Source of the DNA: Flavobacterium lacisediminis
Lineage (GTDB): Bacteria; Bacteroidota; Bacteroidia; Flavobacteriales; Flavobacteriaceae
Reading direction: 5' to 3'
Length of the DNA stretch: 64,000 bases
Assembly: GCF_025909975.1 (NCBI RefSeq)
Contig: NZ_JAPCIO010000007.1
Location: 345-64,344 of the forward strand
Shown here: one piece after another, positions 44,691 through 51,057 of the stretch
Numbering within the stretch: the first letter of the stretch is position 1
How the letters are laid out: the number at the start of each line of letters is the position of its first letter
Position numbers and translations under genes: made by a program
Notes under the pieces: generated by a model
What the model was told of the DNA's origin: nothing
The model's input: only the letters and a program-made list of their open reading frames with translations
Database searches by the model: none

Positions 44691-45110
44691 TTAATCTTTA
44701 AATCGTTCCCATTTAATCAACATGAATTTATCTCCAAGTTCTGTGATTATCATACCAGCACCAGACAATTGATCTTTGTTTTGAAGGAATTCAACCAATT
44801 CATTATGCTTAAAAATCTTATATGTTGGATGGTAATTAGGATGTGGTGGTTTCTTGATTTTAAACTCTTTTACCCAATTACTAATAGAAACGTGTGAAAC
44901 ACCAATAATACGTTCAATTTCTCTAAAACTCAATCCTTCTAAATACAATTGTAAAGCCTTAGTTACATAGTAATCATCTATCTTTTTTCCTAATTTATTG
45001 ACTGTGAAGTAATAATTACATGATTTGCATAAATAGCGCTGTCTATCTTTGATGATACCACTTTTAACGATATTGTCGCTTTGACACTTTGGACAGGATA
45101 AAATCTCCAT
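44691..45110 (-). CDS. IS1 InsA-like zinc-ribbon/HTH protein, probably a domesticated regulator
   Basis: The 139-residue protein has a four-cysteine zinc ribbon (CPKCQSDN at residues 5-12, CKSCNYYF at 28-35) and a helix-turn-helix (LSFREIERIIGVSHVSISNWVKEF, ends LSFREIER and NWVKEF), the InsA architecture of IS1. There is no InsB-type DDE domain, no terminal inverted repeat and no second copy in the window. A non-transposase C-terminal domain (LSGAGMIITELGDKFMLIKW) replaces it. It is divergent from the aromatic operon and upstream of the porin gene, so it could regulate either. Confidence 0.75.
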   Translation of the reverse strand: MEILSCPKCQSDNIVKSGIIKDRQRYLCKSCNYYFTVNKLGKKIDDYYVTKALQLYLEGLSFREIERIIGVSHVSISNWVKEFKIKKPPHPNYHPTYKIFKHNELVEFLQNKDQLSGAGMIITELGDKFMLIKWERFKD

Positions 45111-45987: not shown

Positions 45988-48282
45988 ATGAAAATAACAG
46001 TTATAGGTGGTGGTCCAGGCGGACTTTACTTTTCGATATTAACCAAAAAAGCAATGCCACATTGCCAAATCGATATTTACGAGCGCAATAAACCCGACGA
46101 TAGTTTTGGTTTTGGTGTAGTATTCTCCGACGAAACCTTAGGTGAATTCCTAAAACGTGACATGCAATCATATGAATTAATTCGTAGCAAATTTGCGTAT
46201 TGGGACGATATTATTGTAGCTCGTGATGGCGAATCAGTTAATATTGCTGGAAATGGATTTTGTGGTTGTTCAAGAAAAACATTGTTACAATTATTACAAC
46301 AACGCTGTATTGAAGAAGGCGTAAATCTGCATTTCGAACAAAATGTTGAAGATTTGTCGCAATTCGCAGATTCTGATATAATTCTAGCAACTGATGGAAT
46401 TGCAAGTACTATTCGAACAAAATACCAAAAAGAATTCGGAACTAAAATCGAATTAAAGAAAAACAGATTCGTTTGGTTAGGTTCAACAAAACCGCTGGAT
46501 GCATTTACCTATTTCTTCAGAAGTACACCTCACGGAACAATAGTTGCTCACTCCTATCAATATGAAGAAGGCATGAGTACTTGGATTTTCGAGTGTTCAG
46601 ATGAAACTTGGCAAAAACACGGTTTTGAAGTCACAAATGAAGAAGACACGATGACTAAAATCGCGGAAATCTTTAAAGAAGAATTAGATGGTCATCCGCT
46701 AATCTCAAACAAATCACATTGGCGTCAATTTCCGCATGTAACGAATGAAAATTGGTATCATAACAATATTGTTTTATTAGGCGATGCGAAAGCTACAGCC
46801 CACTACTCTATTGGTTCAGGAACAAAATTAGCAATGGATTGTGCTATCGGATTATCAGATGCCGTAATTGCTAACCCAAACAATGTGCAAGCCGCTTTTG
46901 AACAATACGACAAGTCAAGAAGAAATACAGTAGAAATGATTCAATATGCAGCAATCGTTTCTTTAGATTGGTTCGAAAATATGGATCGTCACATGCAACA
47001 TCCCTTCCAACAATTTGCGTTTGGATGTATGACACGTTCGAAAAAAGTAACGTATGAAAACTTACGTTTAAGAGATAGTTCGTTTACAGATAAAGTTTTA
47101 GAAGAATTCAATGACAATTGCAATGTCAATATCAAAAATCAATCAGTAGCTTTTTCAAAATTCAAATTAAGAGAATTAGAACTCCCAAACCGCATCGTTA
47201 TGGCGCCAATGGGACAATATTCCGCTACAGACGGATTGGTTTCTGATTGGCATTTGGTACATTACGGAAGTCGCGCAACTGGTGGCGTTGGATTAATCAT
47301 TACCGAAATGACTGCCATTTCCGAAACCGGAAGAATTACAGAAGGTTGTGCAGGAATTTACAATGCAGAACAATTGAACCAATGGAAAAAAATTACCGAT
47401 TTCATTCATAACAATACTTCTACTAAAATCGGAATTCAATTAGGACATTCGGGACGTAAAGGTGCTACTAAAAAACCATGGGAAGGCAACGGACCAATGG
47501 AAACACCTTGGAATTTAATTTCGGCTTCTCCTATTCCATTCAATGAAAATTTTGCTACTCCAAAGGAAATGACTTTGGAAGATATGACAGCGATTAATGC
47601 ACAATTCGTACAAGCAACAAAAAATGCAGACGAAGCTGGATTTGATATGATAGAATTACAAGCCCATCACGGCTTTTTATTAGCTTCTTTCTTATCACCA
47701 TTAACCAATATTCGTACAGATGAATTTGGTGGAAGCATCGAAAATCGTTTGAAATATCCAATAGAAGTATTTAAAGCAATTCGTGAAGTATTCCCAACTG
47801 AAAAACCAATTTCAGTGAGAATTTCAGCAACAGATTGGGCAGAAAATGGAATTTCAGAACAAGAAGTAATTGCAATCACAACTGCTTTTAAAAATGCTGG
47901 AGCTGACATCATCAATGTTTCAACAGGAAATACGGTCTCAGGTCAAAAACCATTAACGGGAAGAATGTGGCAGACACCTTTTTCAGATGCCGTTCGAAAT
48001 ACTGTTCATATCCCAACCATTACCACTGGATATATTCAAGATATCGACCAAATCAATACAATAATTCTTAACGGAAGAGCTGATTTAGTCGCTTTAGGAA
48101 GACCTTTATTGTTAGATGCTAATTTCGTTAGAAACGCACAAGCTTACGAACAATTTCAAGCGAATGATATCCCAAATCCATATAAAATGGGAATTTCGCA
48201 TCTGTATCCGCTAAAAGCTTCGGAAAGAAAACATGTGGAAGGAATGAAAAAAGCATTAAAACCGAAAAGTAATAAGAAGTAA
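45988..48282 (+). CDS. Bifunctional salicylyl-/anthraniloyl-CoA 5-hydroxylase with fused OYE-type reductase domain
   Basis: A 764-residue fusion. Residues 1-~385 are a FAD monooxygenase: VIGGGPGGLYFSIL (dinucleotide binding), LATDGIAS, and VLLGDAKATAHYSIGSGTKLA (GD motif, about 262). Residues ~388-750 are an old-yellow-enzyme barrel: LPNRIVMAPMGQYSA, IGIQLGHSGRKG, ELQAHHGFLLASFLSP, ALGRPLLLD. This is the organisation of 2-aminobenzoyl-CoA monooxygenase/reductase and the PRK08255-type salicylyl-CoA 5-hydroxylase. The neighbouring ligase and gentisate-type dioxygenase favour hydroxylation of an ortho-substituted benzoyl-CoA. The substrate (salicylate or anthranilate) is undecided. Confidence 0.9.
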   Translation: MKITVIGGGPGGLYFSILTKKAMPHCQIDIYERNKPDDSFGFGVVFSDETLGEFLKRDMQSYELIRSKFAYWDDIIVARDGESVNIAGNGFCGCSRKTLLQLLQQRCIEEGVNLHFEQNVEDLSQFADSDIILATDGIASTIRTKYQKEFGTKIELKKNRFVWLGSTKPLDAFTYFFRSTPHGTIVAHSYQYEEGMSTWIFECSDETWQKHGFEVTNEEDTMTKIAEIFKEELDGHPLISNKSHWRQFPHVTNENWYHNNIVLLGDAKATAHYSIGSGTKLAMDCAIGLSDAVIANPNNVQAAFEQYDKSRRNTVEMIQYAAIVSLDWFENMDRHMQHPFQQFAFGCMTRSKKVTYENLRLRDSSFTDKVLEEFNDNCNVNIKNQSVAFSKFKLRELELPNRIVMAPMGQYSATDGLVSDWHLVHYGSRATGGVGLIITEMTAISETGRITEGCAGIYNAEQLNQWKKITDFIHNNTSTKIGIQLGHSGRKGATKKPWEGNGPMETPWNLISASPIPFNENFATPKEMTLEDMTAINAQFVQATKNADEAGFDMIELQAHHGFLLASFLSPLTNIRTDEFGGSIENRLKYPIEVFKAIREVFPTEKPISVRISATDWAENGISEQEVIAITTAFKNAGADIINVSTGNTVSGQKPLTGRMWQTPFSDAVRNTVHIPTITTGYIQDIDQINTIILNGRADLVALGRPLLLDANFVRNAQAYEQFQANDIPNPYKMGISHLYPLKASERKHVEGMKKALKPKSNKK

Positions 48283-48283
48283 A

Positions 48284-48310
48284 TAATTACGAATTAGAAA
48301 TTACGAATTA
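48284..48310 (+). repeat. Left inverted repeat of the four-helix-bundle cassette
   Basis: The 27 bp (TAATTACGAATT, AG, AAATTACGAATTA) match the reverse complement of 48654-48680 at 25 of 27 positions. The repeat begins 1 bp after the hydroxylase stop codon and ends at the A of the four-helix-bundle ATG. Confidence 0.9.
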
Positions 48311-48663
48311 TGAAAAATGATAATGTTGTTCAAATAAAAAGTTATGCTTTTGCTGTTCGAATAATAAAAGTTTTTAAATATTTATCTGAACAAAAAAAAG
48401 AATTTGTTTTAAGTAAACAACTATTAAGATGTGGAACTTCAATTGGAGCTAATATTGAAGAAGCCATTGGAGGACAATCAGGAAAAGATTTTTTCGCCAA
48501 AATAACCATATCATATAAAGAAGCAAGAGAAACACATTATTGGATTAGATTATTAAAAGATACTGATTATTTATCTGTTGAGGAAGCTGATAGTTTACTT
48601 AAAGATGTTGATGAGTTACTTAGAATAATTGGTTCTATTCAAAAAACGTTACGTAATTCGTAA
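48310..48663 (+). CDS. Four-helix-bundle protein (S23/23S-rRNA-IVS family)
   Basis: A 117-residue helical protein. LSKQLLRCGTSIGANIEEA (residues ~36-54), GKDFFAKITISYKEARETHYWIRLL (ends GKDFFAK and YWIRLL) and a final helix of hydrophobic heptads define the family first found in 23S rRNA intervening sequences and now seen in many intergenic positions. The fold may bind nucleic acid; its biological role is unknown. It interrupts a catabolic operon, is AT-richer than its neighbours, and is enclosed by a 27-bp inverted repeat, which suggests insertion as a cassette. Confidence 0.9.
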   Translation: MKNDNVVQIKSYAFAVRIIKVFKYLSEQKKEFVLSKQLLRCGTSIGANIEEAIGGQSGKDFFAKITISYKEARETHYWIRLLKDTDYLSVEEADSLLKDVDELLRIIGSIQKTLRNS

Positions 48664-48680
48664 TTTAAAATTCGTAATTA
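48654..48680 (-). repeat. Right inverted repeat of the four-helix-bundle cassette
   Basis: Inverted counterpart of 48284-48310 (TAATTCGTAATTT, AAAATTCGTAATTA on the plus strand). It contains the stop codon of the four-helix-bundle gene and ends exactly one base before the ATG of the CoA-ligase gene. Confidence 0.9.
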
Positions 48681-50261
48681 ATGAAGGATAATTTCGCTCA
48701 CAATAGCTTACCTGCTCTGGAATTACAACCAGAATATACCTTTTTGGATTTACCTCAATTCCAACATTCAGAAATGCTGAATTGCGTAGAAAGATTGTTA
48801 GATAGCCATGTTCGAGAAGGTCGCGGAAATAACATTTGCATTCGTACGTTTGAGGAAACTTGGACGTATCAAGATTTATATGAAAAAGCGAATCAAATTG
48901 CTCACGTTTTGGTGGATGATTTAGGATTAAAATCGGGTAATCGTGTTTTGATTCGTTCGGCTAATAATCCGATGATGGTGGCGTGTTGGTTCGCTATTTT
49001 AAAAGCGGGTGGAATTGTTGTGGCAACCATGCCATTGCTTCGTTCTAAAGAATTGACTACAATTATCGATTGTGCTGAAATTTCGCATGTGATGTGTGAT
49101 AAGGAATTGGAAGAGGAAATCCATTTGGTAAAATCCGATTTCTTAAAACAAACGTGTTTTTATGGGAATTCACAATTAGAAGTATTAATGGCTTCTAAGT
49201 CTAAAATATTCGACAATTATCATTCAAAATCAGATTCGGTGGCTTTGATTGGTTTCACTTCTGGAACAACAGGTTTACCCAAAATGACGGCACATTATCA
49301 CAAAGATATTTTGAATATTTGCGAAGCGTTTCCACAATATTCACTACAAGCCACTCCAAATGATATTTTTACAGGAAGTCCACCTTTAGGATTTACTTTT
49401 GGTTTAGGCGGATTAGTATTATTTCCAATGTATTTCGGAGCTTCAACATTTCTTATCGAAAAACCAAGTCCAGATTTATTGTTGAAAGCGATTCAAGACT
49501 TCAAAATCACGATTTGCTTTACCGCTCCTACTGCTTGGCGCATCATCACTACAAAAGTTCAGGATTACGATATTTCAAGTTTGAGAAAATGTGTATCTGC
49601 TGGTGAAACCTTGCCTTTGAAAGTTTGGCAAGATTGGTACGATGCGACAGGTTTAAAAATCATTGACGGAATTGGCGCTACCGAAATGTTGCATATTTTT
49701 ATTTCATCAAACGAAGAGAACATGAAACCTGGCGCTACAGGAAAAGCGATTACAGGTTACGAAGCTAAAATCATAGACCAACAAGGCAACGAATTACCAA
49801 GAAACGAAGCTGGAAGATTAGCGGTGCGAGGAATTACAGGTTGTAAATACTTAAACCGAGAAGAAAAACAACGAGAATATGTAGAAAACGGTTGGAACAT
49901 CACGGGCGATATTTTCCGTCAAGATGAAGAAGGCTACTTCCATTTTGTGGCACGTGGCGATGATATGATTATTTCTTCGGGCTATAATATTGCGGCAATT
50001 GAAGTAGAATCCGTACTTTTAACCCACGAAGATATTTTGGAATGTGCCGTAGTAGGTTTACCTGATGAAGAACGAGGAATGTTGGTTTGTGCGCATATTG
50101 TGTTACACGATACAACTAAAGCAACAGATGCAATGAAAAACCGTATTCAACACTGGTTCAAAGAAGTAGCTGCTCCCTATAAATACCCAAGAGTAATTAA
50201 TTTCGTGGAATGTTTGCCAAAAACGGAAACAGGAAAAATACAGAGGTTTAAATTAAAATAA
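48681..50261 (+). CDS. Aryl-CoA ligase (benzoate/2-aminobenzoate-CoA ligase family)
   Basis: A 526-residue AMP-forming ligase. VALIGFTSGTTGLPKMTAHYHKD (P-loop; here GFTSGTTGLPKMT), FTAPTAWR, DGIGATEMLHIFISS and the C-terminal catalytic lysine in PKTETGKIQRF are intact. GATEMLHIF is characteristic of benzoate- and aminobenzoate-CoA ligases rather than fatty acid ligases. It would produce the aryl-CoA used by the fused hydroxylase two genes upstream. Ring substituents accepted cannot be read from the sequence. Confidence 0.9.
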   Translation: MKDNFAHNSLPALELQPEYTFLDLPQFQHSEMLNCVERLLDSHVREGRGNNICIRTFEETWTYQDLYEKANQIAHVLVDDLGLKSGNRVLIRSANNPMMVACWFAILKAGGIVVATMPLLRSKELTTIIDCAEISHVMCDKELEEEIHLVKSDFLKQTCFYGNSQLEVLMASKSKIFDNYHSKSDSVALIGFTSGTTGLPKMTAHYHKDILNICEAFPQYSLQATPNDIFTGSPPLGFTFGLGGLVLFPMYFGASTFLIEKPSPDLLLKAIQDFKITICFTAPTAWRIITTKVQDYDISSLRKCVSAGETLPLKVWQDWYDATGLKIIDGIGATEMLHIFISSNEENMKPGATGKAITGYEAKIIDQQGNELPRNEAGRLAVRGITGCKYLNREEKQREYVENGWNITGDIFRQDEEGYFHFVARGDDMIISSGYNIAAIEVESVLLTHEDILECAVVGLPDEERGMLVCAHIVLHDTTKATDAMKNRIQHWFKEVAAPYKYPRVINFVECLPKTETGKIQRFKLK

Positions 50262-50268
50262 GCATTAA

Positions 50269-51057
50269 ATGAACGCAAAACAATTAGTAAAAATTAGCAA
50301 TTATATTGGCTTCATATCAATTATATTATTGGTGTATTGGGTATTTACATTTATTTTAATAGAAGTTTTTGGATTAAAAGTTTTCAGAAAAAATATGACT
50401 GACTCATTTTATTTAAGTGTTTTAGGAATATTAGCAATGATGGCAGGAGCCTTGATAATCAATATAATGTTCAATTTAACTCGAATTGCCCAAAAACACA
50501 ACAATGACGAAGAAGTTTCGAAAAATAACAAAAAAATAATCATTACTCTTTTACTAATTTTTCCAACAATTGCAATTATACTTTTTGGAGGTGATTATTT
50601 AACAAAGAAAAAAAAGGAAGAGCTTTTAATTAATTCTGCCGAATACATCATTAAAATTAGTCAAGAAAAAACCAACAAACTTGTAGATTATAAATTTTCT
50701 AAAAATTACATAATAAATACTGCAGATATTTTGGAGCAATACTCAAATACCGATAGGAATTTTCCAAATGTTAGATTGATTGTCAAAGATACAATTGACA
50801 AAAATCAAGTGTATCTAATTTTCAATGATTACGCTTCATTTAAGGAAAATGACACATTGGTTCCTAGAAAAAATAATTACATTTATAAAACAACCAAAAT
50901 TGAAAGAGATTATTTAGATAATGTTTTCAATAAAAATAATACTGAAGTTCGATTTTCATCATCTGATGGCGATTATGAATTATTCTATCCATATAAAAAA
51001 GGTAACAAAACAATAATTCTTTATTTTTCTGAACATCAACGTTATGGAAAATTATAA
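50269..51057 (+). CDS. Membrane protein of unknown function inside the aromatic operon
   Basis: A 262-residue protein with three N-terminal membrane helices (~14-34, 47-67, 88-106) and a ~150-residue hydrophilic domain that probably faces the periplasm. No transporter or catalytic motif. Its AT-rich codons differ from those of the flanking catabolic genes, and it has no obvious role in the pathway, so it looks like a passenger. It starts 7 bp after the ligase stop. Confidence 0.6.
   Translation: MNAKQLVKISNYIGFISIILLVYWVFTFILIEVFGLKVFRKNMTDSFYLSVLGILAMMAGALIINIMFNLTRIAQKHNNDEEVSKNNKKIIITLLLIFPTIAIILFGGDYLTKKKKEELLINSAEYIIKISQEKTNKLVDYKFSKNYIINTADILEQYSNTDRNFPNVRLIVKDTIDKNQVYLIFNDYASFKENDTLVPRKNNYIYKTTKIERDYLDNVFNKNNTEVRFSSSDGDYELFYPYKKGNKTIILYFSEHQRYGKL

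Follow-up and report, generated by a model that had tools for sequence, protein, structure and literature searches.

An S23 gene between inverted heptamer arrays in Flavobacterium: a probable minimal mobile unit whose array word goes with the protein lineage

The cyanobacterial STRR sequences are heptamer repeats, while the inverted short repeats called REPINs go with the lineage of a chromosomal RAYT protein, RAYT being a Y1 transposase; for the S23 family, we know of no catalytic domain. TAACTGA repeats are known in Beggiatoaceae, Cyanobacteria and Bacteroidetes, their mechanism of transmission not being evident, and a repeat-binding protein has been suggested as a possible mobile element, the section in question naming none (PMC4679880, in the part available). 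For X. campestris, 70 convergent repeat pairs have been reported (PMC4692102, in the part available), and neither the term S23 nor the term intervening appears in the available text of this GGGNATC paper or of the TAACTGA paper (PMC4692102, PMC4679880). In the intervening sequence (IVS) of Coxiella, tandem GACAGAT heptamers precede the S23 ORF, and excision of rRNA IVS by RNase III is reported in the same source (PMC4990558, in the part available). The S23 family, the IVS and heptamer repeats are already known separately; as to a general link between S23 and heptamer arrays, none was found among the open-access papers listed, subscription papers and preprints lying outside that scope, and within it the Coxiella IVS is the sole case.

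The locus described here lies in a stretch of 64,000 nucleotides, analysed as a whole and called the window below, on the Flavobacterium contig NZ_JAPCIO010000007.1, where a 397-bp unit fills the gap between two operon genes:

45988-48282, + strand: upstream operon gene, salicylyl-CoA 5-hydroxylase/oxidoreductase-like (ORF; NCBIfam NF006101, 989 bits, below the cut-off of 1078)
48284-48310, + strand: left arm, a period-7 array with AATT at 48285, 48292, 48299 and 48306, such as related loci also have on the left side of the gene
48310-48663, + strand: S23 / four-helix-bundle gene, 117 aa (TIGR02436, PF05635; structure model)
48654-48680, - strand: right arm, an inverted period-7 array (CGTAATT) with AATT at 48655, 48662, 48669 and 48676 (repeat comparison)
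48681-50261, + strand: downstream operon gene, benzoate-CoA-ligase-like (TIGR02262, 326 bits, below the cut-off of 375), whose orthologs were used for empty sites

The upstream stop codon (48280-48282) is followed by one base and then by the left arm, and the right arm ends at the downstream ATG; the A of the S23 start codon (48310) is the last base of the left arm, and the S23 stop codon (48661-48663) lies inside the right arm. The arms are identical at 25 of 27 bases (93% over 27), and a repeat finder reports the pair as 48284-48315 and 48649-48680 (32 nt at 88%). A preliminary description of this DNA had given the same cassette bounds, arm match and sharing of start and stop codons with the arms, all of which are borne out; its inverted repeats also stand, and what it missed is that they are heptamer arrays, with AATT repeated every 7 bases in both arms (left word AATTACG, right word CGTAATT) and a word that follows the S23 lineage. 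In the predicted RNA fold the arms pair with each other (z -4.4; 0 of 100 shuffles as stable), and Rfam gave zero matches at E up to 1 within 47000-50500. The cassette lies between protein genes and not inside a 23S rRNA gene; S23 is the sole ORF of at least 70 aa inside the arms, and no transposase is found there; no target-site duplication is evident by eye at the junction, where the boundaries of empty sites vary. An IS1-like transposase ORF occurs in the window at 44691-45110 (- strand; 84 bits against a family cut-off of 100).

It was found that the S23 protein matches TIGR02436 with 108.9 bits (cut-off 24, E 1.5e-31) and PF05635, 23S_rRNA_IVP, with 97.2 bits (cut-off 33.8, E 8e-28), in line with the earlier assignment to the protein family of 23S rRNA intervening sequences. 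Its predicted structure is a four-helix bundle (pLDDT 94.7) that matches 2rld (Z 21.2) and 2gsc (Z 17.1), crystal entries of relatives with 5 chains each; the next-best fold is Avd in the ribonucleoprotein of diversity-generating retroelements (DGR; 8ub7, Z 14.4; 4dwl, Z 14.0), and a designed helical bundle scores 13.3. In 12 comparisons with the window gene, dN/dS of S23 is about 0.02-0.17, and the coding sequence, as judged from these alignments, is under purifying selection.

Of 150 genomes in the genus, 68 have a ligase ortholog, and 67 of these loci were retrieved, G205 being left out as its ligase match begins at a contig end. Nine named junction loci had been found through S23, so the occupancy count rests on 65 other junctions that were not chosen for S23 (L264 is out, its upstream ortholog not being read). 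The cassette is present at 6 of these, the window included, and S23 of any type is absent at 59, meaning that empty sites do exist in orthologous operons and that the gene is not fixed; a profile search for S23 of other types in the long junctions lacking AATTACG-type S23 found none. The 65 junctions and 7 named S23-chosen loci (L265 dropped for overlap, L022 and L017 as apparent duplicates) form a set of 72 rows, in which classes other than S23 were assigned by eye: 13 rows carry S23, 21 junctions measure at most 15 nt (down to one base), 13 are other short ones, 2 hold a left arm only and no gene, and 7 hold other inserts, the remaining gene-less rows being 7 AAATCCC/GGAATTT inverted hairpins, 3 of TATTGTA type and 6 of CTTTGCG type. 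The nearest relative of the window at the ligase (98.7% identical) lacks the cassette and has nine bases at the junction. Between the window and F. odoriferum the cassette is 98.2% identical and the flanks 88-90%, with dS of 0.07 for S23, 0.46 for the hydroxylase and 0.63 for the ligase; among window comparisons where both values are defined, S23 dS is below ligase dS in 9 of 9 and below hydroxylase dS in 9 of 10, and one comparison that goes the other way, between L210 and L026, has dS of 2.56 for S23 and of 2.02 and 1.39 for the neighbours, all saturated. The ligase tree requires at least 11 changes of S23 presence for the 13 carriers of 72 rows, against a mean of 12.3 with shuffled labels; 16% of 300 shuffles lie at or below 11 changes, and the tree leaves 27 of its 69 inner branches without resolution. 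Neither movement nor a target-site duplication, an excision product or an enzyme has been seen. Because the nearest relative is without the cassette, bare and gene-less junctions occur and S23 dS is low, the cassette is read as a mobile unit, and the pattern, on sequence comparison, is that of horizontal spread or renewed insertion and not of plain descent. The earlier proposal of a mobile unit between operon genes without a transposase of its own agrees with this coming and going around a single ORF.

Two further features of these junctions were noted. The ligase N-terminus (48681-48700 in the window) reads MKDNF/MLDNF at several occupied junctions and is MKHYEDNF-like at many bare ones, the short form also being found at two bare junctions (L203, L204), perhaps as a scar; and L240 and L243 hold another inverted repeat (CTCTGTCAGAGTT-like) at the same place, which is terminator-like.

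Arrays of this kind are present around S23 genes in many other genomes. Set A comprises 79 loci with close relatives of the window protein, taken from a scan of named genomes. At 80 loci, 79 of them picked by similarity, ATTACGA occurs 187 times forward and 19 times reverse in the left flank, and 31 and 190 times, respectively, in the right one; the background is 0.06 per 150 bp, so the enrichment is not due to chance. The flanks of set A have a sharp lag-7 peak of 0.46 and 0.42, compared with 0.27 in other parts of the same loci. To reduce the bias that selection by similarity brings, S23 genes of every type, most of them high-scoring, were added from 149 genomes of the window's family and from seven others; S23 is present in 113 of the 149 family genomes, with 0-17 matches per genome, and in 46 of 98 cyanobacterial genomes. 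For the inverted-arm test, duplicates and short flanks were dropped (200 to 182 genes), and in set B, which consists mainly of the best-scoring family matches per search, 69 of 97 genes have inverted arms that score beyond the 99th percentile of controls, significant arms being absent in 28. Of 154 flank pairs (sets B, C and D, cyanobacteria included), 101 have their best lag at 7 and 30 at 8, while in control stretches 700-900 bp away lag 7 is best in 5 of 147 and lags 6, 9 and 12 dominate. The sample of named plasmid and phage records covers 16 of 27 matches (15 of 25 plasmids, 1 of 2 phages); 15 of the 16 show lag 7 as the best, several of them with a weak signal, and in 13 the inverted arms score above 11, with five records already counted among the 154 pairs and not all being independent (L381 = L319/L362/L376, L390 = L373 and L386 = L369 are the same or nearly the same loci). 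The exceptions are L384 (lag 6, weak arms), L389 (weak arms) and L391 (phage, array not seen). It can be seen that inverted heptamer arrays flank most of the S23 genes examined, in Bacteroidota, Cyanobacteriota and other phyla, and the arms of the cassette, found in dozens of other genomes, are not unique to this place. Two cyanobacterial loci, L323 and L326, have AATTACG units with the arrays facing in reverse (CGTAATT left, TTACGAA right), and G149:C94:1627-2513 holds three consecutive S23 matches, the last two interrupted by stops.

For the comparison of array words, the left arm of one element was set against the complemented right arm of a second element, which keeps homologous flanks from matching by descent; short proteins and short flanks were left out. 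Among pairs at different sites, the word is shared by 2679 of 2733 at protein identities of at least 60% and by 1348 of 21724 (6%, the background) below 50%; with coding bases removed the counts are 2420 of 2733 and 1008 of 21724, pairs not being independent and the AATTACG clade dominating the counts. Cross-phylum pairs of at least 60% identity share it in 314 of 352 cases, few genes being from outside Bacteroidota and 23 of 231 being without a phylum, and with set A left out sharing is 30 of 52 (at least 60%) versus 705 of 10938 (below 50%), from few independent lineages. Sites were taken as the same if any flanking ORF up to 1500 bp away had a match on the corresponding side; at such shared sites, pairs below 50% identity share the word in 7 of 125. 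The genome of the window has three S23 genes, each with a different word; the copy on C32 has AAAAGTA arms, and its nearest S23 in the set, from Nostoc (50%) and Pseudanabaena (44%), have AAAAGTA-type arrays, partly reversed and mixed with AAAAGGA in Pseudanabaena. The two arms within an element resemble each other more than they resemble those of relatives located elsewhere (19.8 versus 16.6; 66 of 92), which fits pairing or local homogenisation. In these alignments, the heptamer word goes with the S23 protein lineage and not with the place of insertion.

Heptamer arrays are also found apart from S23 genes. Two cyanobacterial S23 genes (L314, L315) are flanked by TAACTGA arrays, and three-unit TAACTGA arrays occur in 10 of 98 cyanobacterial genomes, the top counts being 464 and 323 (overlapping matches) and the next 19; the only two of the 98 genomes with an S23 at least 97% like the TAACTGA-armed one are those with 464 and 323 matches. 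S23 of any type is present in 9 of the 10 array genomes versus 37 of the 88 others (p 0.006), and 8 of the 10 are without an S23 at least 60% identical to the cognate type. A Euhalothece plasmid S23, 76-77% identical to the TAACTGA-armed S23, has TAACTGG/TCACTGG arrays; it equals L319, a locus known before the TAACTGA link was formed, so it is no blind test. In a TAACTGA-rich genome, L330 consists of two facing arrays with a short spacer and no S23, before a gene read by eye as minD. As for AATTACG arrays, 2 of the 8 genomes with them have an S23 of at least 60% identity, compared with 1 of the other 141 (p 0.007), a weak co-occurrence; 6 of the 8 have no such cognate, and S23 lies within about 1500 bp at 1 of 8 exact-array loci examined. 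Arrays in genomes without a cognate S23 mean that arrays may outlive S23 or not need it. A wider reading, which we hold tentatively and at somewhat below an even chance, is that the S23 proteins may make up a large class of rings, every one of them specific for a single heptanucleotide, that S23 with its arrays may form a separate class of transposase-less elements, and that the orphan heptamer repeats (TAACTGA, probably others) may be their ends, scars or non-autonomous copies spread in trans.

By comparison of sequences, S23 presence at the junction is off-tree, spread is independent of the neighbours, the gene is under purifying selection and the arrays are matched to the protein lineage. 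The S23-heptamer element is probably a minimal mobile unit, with one S23 four-helix gene between inverted heptamer arrays and a protein that would recognise its cognate heptamer. The S23 ring may recognise, in RNA or DNA form, the heptamers belonging to its own unit, and such recognition could drive or license movement, with host enzymes helping and doing the chemistry; in the transcript, the arms would form a stem that RNase III may cut as in rRNA IVS, so that the neighbouring genes would stay functional, and gene-less arrays might be leftover non-autonomous copies or scars.

DNA mobility in trans, in which a host transposase or recombinase recognises the arrays and S23 is cargo or regulator, is a possible though rather unlikely explanation. 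The gene-less inverted arrays at the junction and at L330 resemble non-autonomous elements, and DNA insertion permits the antisense placement seen for 4 of 15 annotated plasmid records; however, the word varies with the S23 lineage, a variation that a common transposase would not demand, and the exact two-unit arm pattern, common as such arms are in other genomes, is present in the window's own genome only at the cassette, so that nothing there points to a resident element ending in this way.

Movement at the RNA level is more doubtful still; here a stem-loop RNA would be cut from the transcript and reverse transcribed or recombined, S23 acting like the Avd of DGR. For 216 S23 genes both neighbours lie no more than 500 bp away; of these, 193 are sense, 4 antisense and 19 have mixed neighbours (60:2 for sense to antisense counted once per site cluster), where sense and antisense refer to co-directional neighbours under a simple ORF rule; on plasmids, where the incomplete gene table was used, 8 of the 15 records are sense, 4 antisense to both neighbours and 3 mixed. 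This strong but non-absolute bias fits expression from a host promoter or an RNA step, and the stable predicted stem of the arms, the fold match to Avd and the reported RNase III excision of rRNA IVS (PMC4990558, in the part available) point in the same direction. Nevertheless, the bias may be selection for expression, co-directional plasmid cases are antisense in 4 of 12, and the Z score for Avd barely exceeds that of the designed helical bundle. S23 is also not associated with reverse transcriptase (RT) genes (PF00078): it is present in 32 of 39 RT-positive versus 81 of 110 RT-negative genomes (p 0.39; RT-positive genomes lacking S23 were identified from the two match lists), G007 has 17 S23 family matches and no RT match, the RT family is not among the matches listed for ORFs neighbouring the cassette, and the two RVT_1 matches of the window genome lie on other contigs (C4, C5).

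The neighbours of S23 on plasmids were noted as well. S23 lies between cas2 and cas1 on Nostoc and Anabaena plasmids or between csx2 and cas1 on a Pseudanabaena plasmid (L325, L384, L389), and in 5 of 15 records (L328, L383, L386, L387, L388) inside restriction- or defence-like gene sets, with neighbours comprising DISARM drmD and MmeI, HsdS/HsdR, a helicase and methyltransferase, and DUF1156 and Swt1-HEPN proteins.

A target preference, by which S23 genes insert into or persist at pre-existing heptamer arrays, would account for arrays without a nearby S23 and for the two junctions with one arm and no gene, but it is improbable and already weakened, as 21 of 72 junctions are too short to have room for two arms and where S23 genes of several lineages share a site, their arrays differ too. 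A host regulatory gene of the ordinary kind, in vertical descent with slippage-prone repeats around it, would be under the same purifying selection, but the absence of S23 at 59 of 65 junctions, its dS below that of the ligase in 9 of 9 and of the hydroxylase in 9 of 10 window comparisons and the 0-17 matches per genome make this hardly tenable and, at this junction, close to refuted unless losses are extremely frequent.

If the preferred reading of a minimal mobile unit with cognate heptamers is right, the cassette is a member of a widespread set of very small, seemingly mobile units with protein-matched seven-base ends, and S23-heptamer units may explain some of the unexplained seven-base repeats in bacterial genomes. 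The S23 family, widespread, structurally solved and without a known function, is then a candidate for the repeat-binding protein suggested in the available part of PMC4679880, and a protein family named after rRNA intervening sequences would gain a possible role. As S23 is tied to the heptamer lineage by lineage, the open question of the repeats can be tested directly, a single protein and two short nucleic acids being enough.

Compared with known systems, the gene-less inverted-array hairpins at the same junction are similar to MITEs, although, unlike for a MITE, a parent transposon was not found by arm pattern in the window's own genome. Avd of the diversity-generating retroelements has a fold similar to the S23 model at 13% identity, and the resemblance of PF05635 to Avd is stated in PMC10053308 (in the part available). 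The 23S rRNA IVS with an S23p ORF (Coxiella, Leptospira) shares with the cassette the protein family, terminal inverted repeats and an orientation sense to the host transcript, and the Coxiella IVS measures 428 nt versus 397 bp (PMC4990558, in the part available); unlike the rRNA IVS, the cassette lies between protein genes of an operon and has period-7 arrays on both sides, and its S23 is under purifying selection, whereas Coxiella S23p is described as being in reductive evolution (PMC4990558, in the part available). The orphan heptamer repeats, namely TAACTGA, GGGNATC (Xanthomonas, Nostoc) and cyanobacterial STRR, have the same unit length as the arms, are mostly intergenic and in part form inverted pairs. 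REPIN/RAYT systems are similar to S23 units in their inverted short repeats and differ from them in the place of the gene, since the S23 gene sits inside its own repeats.
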